Assembly (NCBI GenBank): GCA_016903695.1
Contig: JADQBB010000023.1
Coordinates: 1-64,000 of the forward strand
Source of the DNA: Chlorogloea purpurea SAG 13.99
Lineage (GTDB): Bacteria > Cyanobacteriota > Cyanobacteriia > Cyanobacteriales > Microcystaceae
Direction: 5' to 3'
Length of the DNA: 64,000 nucleotides
Shown here: positions 52,802-63,728 of the stretch, piece after piece
How the letters are laid out: the number at the start of each line of letters is the position of its first letter
Position numbering within the stretch: the first letter of the stretch is position 1
The notes under the pieces: model-generated
What the model saw: only the letters and a program-made list of their open reading frames with translations
Told to the model about the DNA's origin: nothing
Databases searched by the model: none
Made by a program: the position numbers and the translations under genes

Positions 52802-52894
52802 TTAAGTTTTCTAGTTACCATTCGGGTAACGAAACGTTATTCGGAGGAGTCTTATCCTACTATAGATAATACACGCTGATTAACAATAGTTTCT

Positions 52895-55800
52895 ATGGAT
52901 TCTCGACCGAAGCTCCTGGGTTTGGTAACTGTTTGTTTAAGTTTATCCTCTGGGTTGCCCCTTTTGACGGGTTGGCTAATACTCACGCCGACGATCGTCA
53001 GCGCCCAAACTGTAGAAGATAAACAAACCCAATTGGCGAAGTTAGTCCAACAAGGCGGGCGACAATTCAATCAATCCCAATTTAAAGAAGGACTTACCAG
53101 CTATCAGCAAGCTTTGATTATTATCAGACAGTTAATCGCTTTTGCCGATCGAGAAAATCGCCCCAAGTTAAGGGCGTGGGAAGATAGTATATTACGCAGT
53201 ATCGGTATCGGCTATTATCGCTTGGGTGATTATCAAAGTGCCATCAAAGCTTTTGAAGAATCTCTCGCTATTTCCCAAGAGATTAATAATGGGGGGGGTG
53301 AGGTACTGACTCTCAACGGCTTGGGGAATATTTATAATTTATTGGGGCAGAATCAACAGGCTTTAGATCTGTACGATCGAGCCTTGGTTATTCTCGAAAA
53401 AATGTCCCGAACTAGTTCTAAGGAAGAACGGGAATCGATTCGCAAAAACGAAAGTACCACGATTAATAATATCGGTAATATATATATAAATTTGGGTCAA
53501 TACAGCAAAGCTCTCGACTATTTCACCAGATCTTTAAAAATTTCCCAAGAGTTGAGCGATCGTTCGGGGGAAAAAACCAATCTCAGTAATATAGGCGTTA
53601 TCTACACCAATTTAGGAGACTCGAAAAAAGCTTTAGAATATTTTGAAAAATCTTTGGCTATCTCCCGAGAGATTAATGATTCGTTGGGTCAAAGTATAAC
53701 CTTGAATAATCTCGGTCTGATCTATAGCAACATGGGCAATACTACTAAAGCTTTAGATTATTACAACCAATCTTTACTGATCACCCGTAAAGCGGGAGAT
53801 AGAAATGGTGAAAAGACGACGCTCAATAATATTGGGTCGTTGTACGATAATTTAGGAGACTATAAAAAAGCGATCAATTTTTATAAACAGTCTCTAGGGA
53901 TCTCTGAAAGTATAGGGGATAAACCTGGAGAAAAAATCAGCCTCAATAATATCGGCGGTATTTATAATAAACAGGGAGATTATAAAACCGCTTTGGTCTA
54001 TTATGAACAAGCTTTAAACTTGAGTAAAGAGCAGGGAGATAAAAACGGCGAAGCTATCACTCTCAATAATATCGGTAATACCTATGACAAGATGGGAGAT
54101 TATAAAACCGCTCTCTCCAATTATGAAGCGGCTCTGTCTTTAGTAGCAGGAAATAATGATAAGGGAAGTGAAAGCATCACTCTCAATAATATCGGTGCAG
54201 TCTACGTCAACTTAGGCGATTACCAGAAGGCTTTAGATTACTTTCAAAAGTCCTTCAAGATTTTAGAAACCTTGGGTTATAAACCTTTAATAGGCATAAG
54301 TTTAAATAATTTAGGCAATATCTATGATAAGTTGGGCGATTATCCTACCGCCTTGGAATACTACCAGAAAGCCTTGACCATATTAGTTGCCGCGGGAGAC
54401 AAAGCTAATCAAGGCAGCGCTCTCAATAATATCGCCACTGTCTATAGTAAATTAGGCAATTATAGCCAAGCCCTTAACTATTACCAGCAGGCTTTAAACA
54501 TACAAAGCGCCATAGGCAATCAAGGAGAAGTCAGCACCGTTTTCAACAATCTGGGTAATCTTTCCCGCAATCAGGGCAATTATCAACAAGCCCTGGAGTA
54601 TTATGAAAAAGCTTTGGTCATCGCTCAGAAAATTGGTAGCCGCTACGCGGAAAATACGGTACTGGCTAATTTAGGGGAAACTTATCAAAATTTAGGAGAG
54701 TCCCATAAAGCCTTAGAGTATTTCGATAAAGCTCTCCTTCTAGCTACCAATATAAACGATCGAGCCGGACAAGCCACCATACTCAATAATTTCGGCGTGG
54801 TGTATACCAGTTTAGGTCAGTATAGTAAAGCTCTGGAGGCTTATGAAAAATCCCTGAAAATTTCCCAAGCTATGGGAGATCAATACGCAGTCGGTGTTAG
54901 TCTCAATAATATGGGGATCATTCACAATACTTTAGGACAGAATCAAGAAGCCTTGAAGTATTATCAGCAAGCCTTGCAGTTACGGCAAAAAATCGGAGAC
55001 AAATCTGGTGTCAGCACTAGCTTGAATAACATAGGTTTTATCTACTTCGATCAGAAACAATATGAAGAATCTTTAAAATATTTCCAGCAGTCTTTAACTC
55101 TCAATCACGAAATTGGCAATGTGGCTTCAGAAGCGAAAGCTACCAATAATCTAGGCAACGCCTACGAAAATTTAGGACAGAAAGATAAAGCCGTGGAAAA
55201 TTACGAGAAAGCCTTGACAATAGCTCGCTCCATAGGGGATAAAGACACAGAAGCGAGAGCAATAAATAATATCGGCTATAGCTATTTTGACAAACAAGAT
55301 TATCAAAAGACACTCGAATACTTCCAGCAGGCTCTAGTGATCAGTAGAGCGATCAAAAATCAAGAATTAGAAGGGACTATATTAAATAACTTGGGGATAG
55401 TGTGGGAAAAACAAGGCTCTCCACAGTTAGCGGTATTCTTCTTCAAACAATCGGTCAATACCTATGAAAATATCCGCCAGAATATCCGCAGTTTATCGCA
55501 AGTACAACAACAGTCCTACGTGGATACTATTTCTCACACTTATCGGCGCTTGGCAGACATATTACTACAGCTCGATCGAGTCTTAGAAGCCCAGAGAGTC
55601 CTCGACCTTTTAAAAGTGCAAGAATTAGACGACTATCTCAGTAACGTGCGCGGTAACGCCAACACCCAAGAGGGAATCGATAACCTACCTGGTGAAACGA
55701 AAATCCTCGACGAATATAATAAGTTACAAGATAGAGGCATTAAAGTCGGACAGGAACTAAGTCAATTGCGACAGATTCCCGAATCAGGACGTACAGAACT

Positions 55801-57070
55801 CCAAAAACAGAGAATCGCCGAACTGGTGACAGAACAACAAAAGTTAGTCAAACAATACGTCGAGTTCACCCGCCGCCCCGATATTGTTAACTATACCAAG
55901 CAATTAAGTCAGAGCGCTAAAGACCAGAATGTCAACTTAACGAGTCTCCGCAATCTTTCCGACAATCTCAAACGCTTACAGGCTAACGCGGCTTTACTGT
56001 ATCCCCTGATCTTAGACGATCGTTTGGAATTAATCCTCGTCACCCCCGATAGTGCCCCGATTCGGCGCACCGTCAACGTCAAGAAAACCGATTTGAACCG
56101 GGTAATATTACAATTCCGGCAAGCCTTAACAGACCCAAGTAAAGACGCAAAAACACCAGGAAAGCAATTATACGACTGGTTGATTCAACCCCTAGAGAAA
56201 GACCTGAAAGCGGCCGGCACGAAAACTCTAATTTATGCCCCCGACAGTCAACTGCGCTACGTACCTCTAGCCGCCCTCTATGACGGCACAGGGTGGTTAA
56301 TTCAGCGTTACGCCGTGAACTATATCACCGCGGCTAGTTTAACCGATTTCAATACTCGCCCCCAAACAGATCTCAAAGTGTTAGCCGGGGCCTTCACCCA
56401 AGGCAAATTTCTCGTGAAGGTGGGGGCCCGTCAATTTAATTTGGCAGGATTACCTTTCGCTAAAGTGGAAGTGGATAATTTATCCACCGAAGTACCGAAT
56501 ACAACTAGATTACTCGACGGTCAATTCAGTAAAGATAGTACCGTTTCTCGATTGGATGACTATTCGGTCATCCATCTGGCCACTCACGCGGCTTTCGTCC
56601 CGGGTAGTCCCGATGATTCTTTTATTTTATTCGGTAATGGCGATCAAGCCACCCTCTCGGAAGTCCACGATACCTGGCTGATGACGAATGTAGATTTAGT
56701 GGTGTTGAGTGCCTGTGAGACTGCTGTGGGCGGAGAATTGGGCAACGGCGAAGAAATCCTCGGTTTCGGTTACTTGATGCAGAATGCGGGGGCGAGAGCC
56801 ACTATCGCTTCTTTATGGACGGTGGATGACGGTGGTACTCAGTTACTGATGAATAATTTTTATAAGTTTTTGGAGACGAAGAAATTATCTAAAGTGGAGG
56901 CTTTAAGACAAGCGCAGATGAGCCTTATCAACGGCGATAAAAACCCCACGGGAGATGGAAGGGGTTTACGAGTGGAAGGAAAAAATATGGGAGTTTCTGC
57001 GGCTGTACAGAGTCGATTAGATCATCCCTATTATTGGGCCCCTTTTATCTTGATCGGTAATGGTTTATAA
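52895..57070 (+). CDS. exported TPR-CHAT protein (caspase-like protease)
   Basis: A 1391-residue protein. Residues 1-37 look like a signal peptide (hydrophobic core, cleavage near VSAQT). Nineteen tetratricopeptide repeats of 40 residues run from about 99 to 868, most starting LNNIGxxY and containing GDYxKALxYY. A coiled linker follows (about 870-1050). The C-terminal CHAT peptidase domain has the catalytic histidine in HLATHAAF (His1231) and cysteine in LSACETA (Cys1274), then GFGYLMQNAGARATIASLW. CHAT proteases are caspase relatives used in signalling. The target is unknown. An export signal would place it outside the cytoplasm. It is monocistronic. Confidence 0.92.
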   Translation: MDSRPKLLGLVTVCLSLSSGLPLLTGWLILTPTIVSAQTVEDKQTQLAKLVQQGGRQFNQSQFKEGLTSYQQALIIIRQLIAFADRENRPKLRAWEDSILRSIGIGYYRLGDYQSAIKAFEESLAISQEINNGGGEVLTLNGLGNIYNLLGQNQQALDLYDRALVILEKMSRTSSKEERESIRKNESTTINNIGNIYINLGQYSKALDYFTRSLKISQELSDRSGEKTNLSNIGVIYTNLGDSKKALEYFEKSLAISREINDSLGQSITLNNLGLIYSNMGNTTKALDYYNQSLLITRKAGDRNGEKTTLNNIGSLYDNLGDYKKAINFYKQSLGISESIGDKPGEKISLNNIGGIYNKQGDYKTALVYYEQALNLSKEQGDKNGEAITLNNIGNTYDKMGDYKTALSNYEAALSLVAGNNDKGSESITLNNIGAVYVNLGDYQKALDYFQKSFKILETLGYKPLIGISLNNLGNIYDKLGDYPTALEYYQKALTILVAAGDKANQGSALNNIATVYSKLGNYSQALNYYQQALNIQSAIGNQGEVSTVFNNLGNLSRNQGNYQQALEYYEKALVIAQKIGSRYAENTVLANLGETYQNLGESHKALEYFDKALLLATNINDRAGQATILNNFGVVYTSLGQYSKALEAYEKSLKISQAMGDQYAVGVSLNNMGIIHNTLGQNQEALKYYQQALQLRQKIGDKSGVSTSLNNIGFIYFDQKQYEESLKYFQQSLTLNHEIGNVASEAKATNNLGNAYENLGQKDKAVENYEKALTIARSIGDKDTEARAINNIGYSYFDKQDYQKTLEYFQQALVISRAIKNQELEGTILNNLGIVWEKQGSPQLAVFFFKQSVNTYENIRQNIRSLSQVQQQSYVDTISHTYRRLADILLQLDRVLEAQRVLDLLKVQELDDYLSNVRGNANTQEGIDNLPGETKILDEYNKLQDRGIKVGQELSQLRQIPESGRTELQKQRIAELVTEQQKLVKQYVEFTRRPDIVNYTKQLSQSAKDQNVNLTSLRNLSDNLKRLQANAALLYPLILDDRLELILVTPDSAPIRRTVNVKKTDLNRVILQFRQALTDPSKDAKTPGKQLYDWLIQPLEKDLKAAGTKTLIYAPDSQLRYVPLAALYDGTGWLIQRYAVNYITAASLTDFNTRPQTDLKVLAGAFTQGKFLVKVGARQFNLAGLPFAKVEVDNLSTEVPNTTRLLDGQFSKDSTVSRLDDYSVIHLATHAAFVPGSPDDSFILFGNGDQATLSEVHDTWLMTNVDLVVLSACETAVGGELGNGEEILGFGYLMQNAGARATIASLWTVDDGGTQLLMNNFYKFLETKKLSKVEALRQAQMSLINGDKNPTGDGRGLRVEGKNMGVSAAVQSRLDHPYYWAPFILIGNGL
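53189..55501 (+). repeat. 120-bp tandem coding repeats (19 TPR units)
   Basis: Within the CHAT gene the sequence repeats with a 120-base period, recognisable by ctcaataatatcgg near each unit start. Unit two is ten codons longer than the others. The DNA copies are diverged, so the array is old rather than recently expanded. Confidence 0.85.
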
Positions 57071-62870: not shown

Positions 62871-63668
62871 TCAGTTCGGTTTTTGCATCGCCTCGAGCGC
62901 ACTTAAAGACTTCTGTGACATTGCCGATTTGCCTTGTTGGGCCGCCGCTTGAGAAGCCTGTCTTAAATCTTGAAGAGCTTCTTTAGGTCTACCGAGTTTG
63001 TAATAAGTCAGGCCCCGATTATGAAGTGACTCGGCGTATTGAGGATTAATGCGCAAGCTTTCGTTATAGTCGCTCAAAGCTTGTTCGTGTTGACCGAGAC
63101 GATTATAAGCGAGGGCGCGGTTGTAAAAAATCCGCTCTTTCCCCCGAACATTAGATAACTTTAAAGCGTCGCTATAGTCCTTGATTGCGTCTTCGTGAGC
63201 GCCAGAGTCATCGTGGGCGTTGCCGCGATAGATATAAAAATCGGCGAAATCGGGATTGAGGGCGATCGCTTGAGAGCAATCGGTGATCGCATCTCCATAC
63301 TTTTTAGTTAGATAATAAACATAGCAACGATTACCGTAGGCGTTGACGTAATTAGGATTAACCGAGATAGCTTTAGTGTAATCATCGATCGCGCTTTCAT
63401 ACTTGCCGAGAATTAAATGAGCGTAACCGCGATTGTAATAGGCATCAGCGTCCTTCGGTTCAAGATTTAGGGCTTGGGTAAATTGTTCGATTGCGCCCTG
63501 ATAATCTCCCGAATTCAACTTATCCACACCCCGATTATAAAACACCACCGCTCTATTCGGCTCTTTCGACCCCGGAGTGGATACCGATTGTGCGGAAACG
63601 GAAGTAGAGACGCTCATAGCAGCGAGGGTGAGAGCGAGAAACTGACAGATCGATCGATTCTTTCTCAT
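62871..63668 (-). CDS. exported TPR protein
   Basis: A 265-residue protein. A signal peptide (RSICQFLALTLAAMSVS, ending VSAQS) is followed by six tetratricopeptide repeats of 34 residues with the AYYNRGYAHLILGKYESAIDDY pattern (shown in part). It probably acts as a scaffold in the periplasm or lumen. I choose the ATG at 63668 (MRKNRSI), which gives a standard signal peptide; the frame extends to 63686. It is divergent from the CyanoP gene. Confidence 0.85.
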   Translation of the reverse strand: MRKNRSICQFLALTLAAMSVSTSVSAQSVSTPGSKEPNRAVVFYNRGVDKLNSGDYQGAIEQFTQALNLEPKDADAYYNRGYAHLILGKYESAIDDYTKAISVNPNYVNAYGNRCYVYYLTKKYGDAITDCSQAIALNPDFADFYIYRGNAHDDSGAHEDAIKDYSDALKLSNVRGKERIFYNRALAYNRLGQHEQALSDYNESLRINPQYAESLHNRGLTYYKLGRPKEALQDLRQASQAAAQQGKSAMSQKSLSALEAMQKPN

Positions 63669-63728
63669 TATTAATAGTAGGGTCAACCTTATAGAATAAA
63701 ATACAATAGTTCGTCCGTGAAAATTTTT

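Follow-up and report, generated by a model that had tools for sequence, protein, structure and literature searches.

We describe here a gene of the cyanobacterium Chlorogloea purpurea SAG 13.99, located in a window of 64,000 nucleotides (positions 1 to 64,000 of contig JADQBB010000023.1), that codes for a large protein of tetratricopeptide repeats (TPRs) ending in a caspase-like CHAT domain and starting with a predicted signal peptide. We favour the view that it is a secreted TPR-CHAT cysteine protease, which would dock through its TPRs, relay the binding through a linker and cut a bound or neighbouring protein with the pair His1231/Cys1274. With its dyad intact, the protein is best read as a protease that works outside the cytoplasm, and it is probably active. 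Export is well supported: relatives have the signal sequence too, and the mature protein has lost all its cysteines except the catalytic one. The signal sequence, the TPR coil, the CHAT domain, the intact dyad, the single catalytic cysteine and the recurrence in relatives are all observed at the level of the sequence. Caspase-like CHAT proteases have mainly been discussed as enzymes of signalling, death or CRISPR inside the cell, and against this common picture the protein is unusual; in cyanobacteria it is a numerically ordinary member of a class of exported CHATs.

The N-terminus has a net charge of +1, followed by an uncharged hydrophobic core and by the cleavage motif VSA-QT at residues 37/38. 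By our heuristic, these are the n-, h- and c-regions, with an A-X-A-like motif, of a type I (Sec) signal peptide placed at the real start of the protein. The rule called 7 of 7 genes of the window judged as exported, none of the 32 judged as cytosolic and 15 of 2003 internal stretches; it had been loosened once against these same calibration genes, whose labels were given by eye. An in-frame stop is found at 52877, shortly 5' of the ATG at 52895, which is the sole ATG or GTG among codons 1 to 130. Later starts there are all TTG (codons 10, 21, 24, 47, 74 and 110), making a downstream start unlikely, and this candidate was rejected. No Shine-Dalgarno-like sequence was evident by inspection 5' of the ATG. 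A reading made earlier from the sequence alone (the sequence-only reading) had given the same position, strand and length, the same two catalytic residues and a signal-peptide-like N-terminus, all of which were recovered here; translation from a start beyond the signal segment, which it had named as a finding that would speak against export, was not borne out.

Outside the reducing cytoplasm, proteins generally avoid free cysteines, so that their depletion supports export independently of the signal peptide. The full-length protein has only two: Cys14, which lies in the signal peptide, and the catalytic Cys1274, the one left in the mature protein (1354 residues). At the density of the cytosolic genes of the window, about 19.5 would be expected in the remaining mature chain, where there are none. 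Among the window genes the density was 14.4 per 1000 amino acids in the 32 cytosolic ones and 6.7 in those judged as exported. Exported CHATs of 900-1900 amino acids (n = 37) had 2.2 per 1000, compared with 11.5 in a clade of 16 signal-less CHATs; exactly one cysteine was found in 22 of these 37, against 5 to 24 in each member of the signal-less clade, and within the CHAT domain the means were 1.27 and 6.4 (for the surveyed CHAT open reading frames, ORFs, Mann-Whitney P = 8e-5, a value that ignores relatedness). For all 26 exported ORFs with a single cysteine, this residue is that of the catalytic SAC motif. Its survival as the only one argues for its retention for use. The cysteine signature could provide a simple rule of thumb to separate exported from cytoplasmic CHATs.

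The survey took in ORFs read from CHAT-bearing genomes (at least 12 of the 19 searched) among the matches listed, plus other loci, 123 of them with a closed 5' end; most matches of genome G053, a broken pair and one stop-bearing match of G049 and a few partial matches of G042 were left out. A set of 106 ORFs with a C-terminal CHAT of at least 150 bits, which includes loci picked by similarity to the window protein and extra loci, was obtained after removing two 5'-open ORFs and four matches below 150 bits. A signal peptide was called mechanically, by a conservative rule, in 72 of the 106 (in the genome-wide part taken by itself, in 47 of 76), and several further ORFs have N-termini that resemble signal peptides by eye. 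Judged by these predicted signal peptides, export is a class trait and exported CHATs are the commoner type among the surveyed cyanobacterial C-terminal CHATs. Cyanobacteria do not fit the view of the sequence-only reading, in which CHAT proteases are as a rule cytoplasmic, and its surprise at export was, given these counts, partly misplaced; what stands of its interpretation is the export and the intact dyad. The dyad was intact in all 72 exported ORFs and in 32 of the 34 others. In a maximum-likelihood tree of 107 CHAT domains the 16 signal-less rows formed one clade with the window protein outside it. The latter fell in a clade of six rows (support 97/99), all with a signal peptide and with one cysteine in the mature part. 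Elsewhere on the tree the loss (or miscall) of the signal is scattered, with 19 label changes versus 29.8 in shuffles. The source genome (3.16 Mb, 78.6% complete) contains six CHAT genes. A search of genome contigs with the window protein retrieved a single distant locus, in a Phycisphaerales metagenome-assembled genome, and viral contigs gave one distant CHAT (L158) and none by the subfamily profile.

This profile, built from the linker and CHAT of six members of the protein's own subfamily, was searched across 386 genomes of the phylum. It matched at E <= 1e-60 in 91 of them, mostly other CHATs under ~280 bits, and about fifty full subfamily matches exceeded 340 bits. Fifty-one subfamily ORFs were read, 48 of them with a complete 5' end. 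A signal peptide was called in 35 of the 48; of the other 13, judged by eye, 11 show, at a start close by, a signal peptide or lipobox, and two are 5' fragments. A survey of orthologues for a conserved signal peptide had been proposed by the sequence-only reading. The dyad motif is kept by 43 of the 48. Exactly one cysteine is left in just 11 of them (at most two in 22), indicating that the strict single-cysteine state is not general across the wider subfamily. Members differ in their TPR units, with 0 to 21 each (median 8; 19 in the window protein); as read from these sequences, the protease end (linker and CHAT) is the constant part of the subfamily and the putative TPR binding end the variable one. 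Two plasmid relatives, Planktothrix agardhii BBD57070.1 (43% identity over 77%) and Pseudanabaena WP_126390688.1, share with the window protein a signal-like N-terminus, the TPRs and the CHAT SAC motif, with one cysteine in all, but they are shorter and plasmid-borne. Three members of ~690 amino acids (L206, L209 and L212) have by eye lipobox-like ends (LLSC, LVSC), suggesting lipoprotein forms. In genome G042 (L044:6775-17583) three tandem subfamily copies with near-identical signal peptides are followed by a gene for an exported-looking trypsin-like protease. In a close relative in G014 (L042:777-3182) an in-frame TAA breaks the CHAT ORF and the frame resumes after it.

Pfam finds TPRs throughout the protein and a single CHAT domain (PF12770, residues 1088-1389), scoring 204 bits where the cut-off is 24. 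With a profile made from its own repeats we found 17 contiguous TPR units of exactly 40 residues (188-867), two more at 103-136 and 139-171 and a weak extra one at 59-78. The 19 uniform 40-residue TPRs described before are therefore essentially right in number, as 19 strong units, and strictly uniform in 17 only. A single-sequence AlphaFold2 model of residues 38-867 (mean predicted local distance difference test, pLDDT, 88) has 40 helices; in this model the region is a coil of about 20 TPRs, i.e. ~20 helix pairs. Adjacent units have 33-61% nucleotide identity, indicating that the repeats are old, and Tandem Repeats Finder detected no array at the DNA level. The columns of His1231 and Cys1274 are invariant across 29 aligned exported CHATs. 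By a profile search with the relatives, the nearest CHAT with a solved structure is that of Csx29-type chains (best E 2e-4). A PDB search with the linker and CHAT as a single sequence gave nothing beyond a designed TPR and chance matches. HaaT (NF041717) matched with 298 bits, below the NCBIfam cut-off of 1125, the best stretch lying within the TPR part.

From these features we infer that the protein is actually exported and cleaved, that it acts as a protease activated, on the model of Csx29, through TPR binding, and that it has an extracytoplasmic substrate. The Sec-type signal peptide would carry it across the cytoplasmic membrane, with cleavage probably after residue 37. Outside, the coil of ~20 TPRs would dock another protein, either a partner or a substrate, and the linker might relay this binding to the CHAT domain, as in Csx29. 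The His1231/Cys1274 pair, activated or brought to the substrate by binding, would then cut the bound protein or a neighbouring one.

The protein could instead be an exported binding or adhesion scaffold, in which the CHAT no longer cuts and the TPR coil does the work. The subfamily range of 0 to 21 TPRs is what would be expected if binding were the selected trait, and one relative (L235) has no cysteine and no dyad motif. We regard this as improbable in view of the dyad conserved in all the exported ORFs and in nearly all the complete subfamily members (counts above), and since a dead domain would not be predicted to keep its catalytic cysteine as the one survivor of the depletion. An N-terminus kept uncleaved as a membrane anchor, with TPRs and CHAT tethered and facing the periplasm or lumen, seems to us similarly doubtful. 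The hydrophobic stretch of ~30 residues would suit it, and the lipobox-like ends of L206, L209 and L212 suggest that tethered forms may exist; against it, the motif is of type I, and the 72 called relatives show at this position Ala at -1 in 62 and Gln at +1 in 29, both favoured by the scoring rule itself. Very unlikely, in our opinion, is a cytoplasmic signalling or defence protease, of the Craspase, gasdermin-activating or conflict-system type, whose N-terminus merely looks like a signal. The best-characterised CHATs, e.g. Csx29, do work inside the cell (available text of PMC9729208), and PADLOC gave five matches, at least two of them to TPR-named models. None of the five lies within the CHAT part, however, and the signal-less CHATs form their own clade, rich in cysteines, from which the window protein with its one mature cysteine is excluded.

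Several observations weigh against a secreted, cleaved and active protease. The signal peptide calls come from a custom scoring rule distinct from SignalP, and the hydrophobic N-terminus is long (~residues 7-37) and could persist uncleaved as an anchor. The AlphaFold2 model of linker and CHAT, made from three sequences, was unusable (pLDDT 51.5). The mature parts of exported paralogues in the source genome contain 3 and 8 cysteines, so that the depletion is a tendency and not universal, and the cysteine contrast is partly that of one clade versus the rest. Finally, CHASE2, DUF928, DUF1822 and ShlB are all absent from the contig of the window gene.

Csx29 of the type III-E CRISPR system (Craspase) also has TPRs followed by a C-terminal CHAT with a His-Cys dyad. 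In the available text of PMC9729208 it is a member of a cytoplasmic RNA-guided complex in which target binding shifts a linker and thereby opens the dyad. Unlike it, the window protein has a signal peptide and about 20 TPRs; CRISPR genes, gRAMP/Cas7-11 and Csx30 were not recognised by eye among the window ORFs, where no targeted search was made. HetF of Anabaena PCC 7120 is likewise a cyanobacterial CHAT-TPR putative protease, linked to the membrane, with the order CHAT (residues 1-555), one transmembrane segment and TPR (PMC8406250, available part); in the window protein this order is reversed, with the TPRs first and the CHAT C-terminal. Prokaryotic metacaspases or orthocaspases have N-terminal helices that are possibly signal peptides, and extracellular roles are discussed for them, as is a Trichodesmium metacaspase-CHASE2 protein (PMC3501461, in the part available). 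They differ in belonging to Peptidase C14, and the word CHAT is absent from the main text of that article. Our literature search, with most subscription papers beyond its reach, found no publication on exported cyanobacterial CHAT proteins, which seem to be an underdescribed class. Its marks are a signal peptide together with the loss of most or all of the non-catalytic cysteines. The size of this class would imply that much cyanobacterial caspase-like proteolysis occurs in the periplasm, in the thylakoid lumen or at the surface.

Genomic partners, which the sequence-only reading had proposed to survey, were found near other exported CHATs and not at the window gene. Within 5 kb of 54 exported CHATs, CHASE2 was found in 10, DUF928 in 11 and ShlB in 8, against random means of 1.5, 1.4 and 1.0 (maxima 6, 5 and 5) in 1000 draws that placed genes anywhere on the same contig and ignored gene clustering; the window gene is one of the 54 and is negative. 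When nearby copies were collapsed the counts were 10, 11 and 8 of 45 clusters, and the signal-less clade gave 0 of 16 for each. DUF1822 (2 of 54, random mean 0.34, maximum 4) showed no clear enrichment. In the source genome itself (L039:2645-13692, G000:C5) a protein with a two-partner secretion (TPS) domain (PF05860) ends in a CHAT and has a divergent ShlB/POTRA (ShlB/FhaC) transporter, next to a DUF928 gene and a CHASE2-AAA_35 gene. This paralogue (G000 L039:4782-10280), an example of TPS/haemagglutination-CHAT fusions, resembles the window protein in being exported with a C-terminal CHAT, and differs in having a TPS passenger and its own ShlB partner in place of the long TPR coil; its CHAT is predicted to be at the cell surface. 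Relatives on plasmids of Tolypothrix (32% identity over 94%) and of Calothrix (34% identity over 85%) lie directly upstream of a CHASE2 protein also bearing a CHAT. As some exported CHATs adjoin TPS transporters or CHASE2 sensors, a substrate outside the cytoplasm is plausible for the window protein too, and these neighbours (CHASE2 receptors, DUF928 and TPS partners) supply concrete candidates.

We also looked at 16 loci chosen for DUF1822 or CHASE2 near a CHAT (L041:7296-11168, i.e. G000:C4, and also L112, L242 and L251 among them). DUF1822 is found there beside a CHAT-bearing protein, fused to CHASE2 in 15 of the 16, with a putative sigma factor in 7 (a weak Sigma70_r4 in one), DUF928 in 9 and an exported CHAT in 6. 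The inner part of these loci resembles the EACC2 systems of PMC8195603, in whose available text EACC2-caspase proteins, which have C-terminal domains such as CHASE2, adjoin an extracytoplasmic function (ECF) sigma factor and DUF1822. We do not claim these loci as new, except for the exported CHAT in the six. It is conceivable, although we hold it for a long shot, that exported CHATs form the outer half of a trans-envelope relay, acting on, or being sensed by, CHASE2 receptors with a cytoplasmic CHAT, beside DUF1822 and a putative sigma factor, with the window protein serving in trans. New in such a relay, the inner half of which has been described before (PMC8195603), would be that exported CHATs, DUF928 and TPS transporters are linked to that half.

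Table 1. Features of the TPR-CHAT gene, in window coordinates.
Feature	Position	Strand	Basis
Exported TPR-CHAT coding sequence, 1391 amino acids (export predicted)	52895..57070	+	ATG at 52895, stop at 57070
Predicted signal peptide, residues 1-37, VSA-QT, includes Cys14	52895..53005	+	Calibrated heuristic
TPR array, residues 59-867 (1 weak and 19 strong units, 17 of exactly 40 amino acids)	53069..55495	+	Repeat profile; model
Predicted helical linker, residues 868-1085	55496..56149	+	Conserved in subfamily alignment; helices in low-confidence model
CHAT caspase-like protease domain, residues 1086-1391	56150..57067	+	PF12770 match
Codon of catalytic His1231 (HLATHAAF)	56585..56587	+	Sequence; aligned column
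Codon of catalytic Cys1274 (LSACET), sole Cys of mature protein	56714..56716	+	Sequence

The gene is solitary, one flanking gene being divergent and the other convergent. We take the former to be a ThiD2/TMP-TENI gene and the latter a CCG-domain gene, the identities of the window genes having been assigned by eye. Another TPR protein with a clear signal peptide, with the motif VSA-QS, is encoded within the window on the reverse strand (62871-63686).

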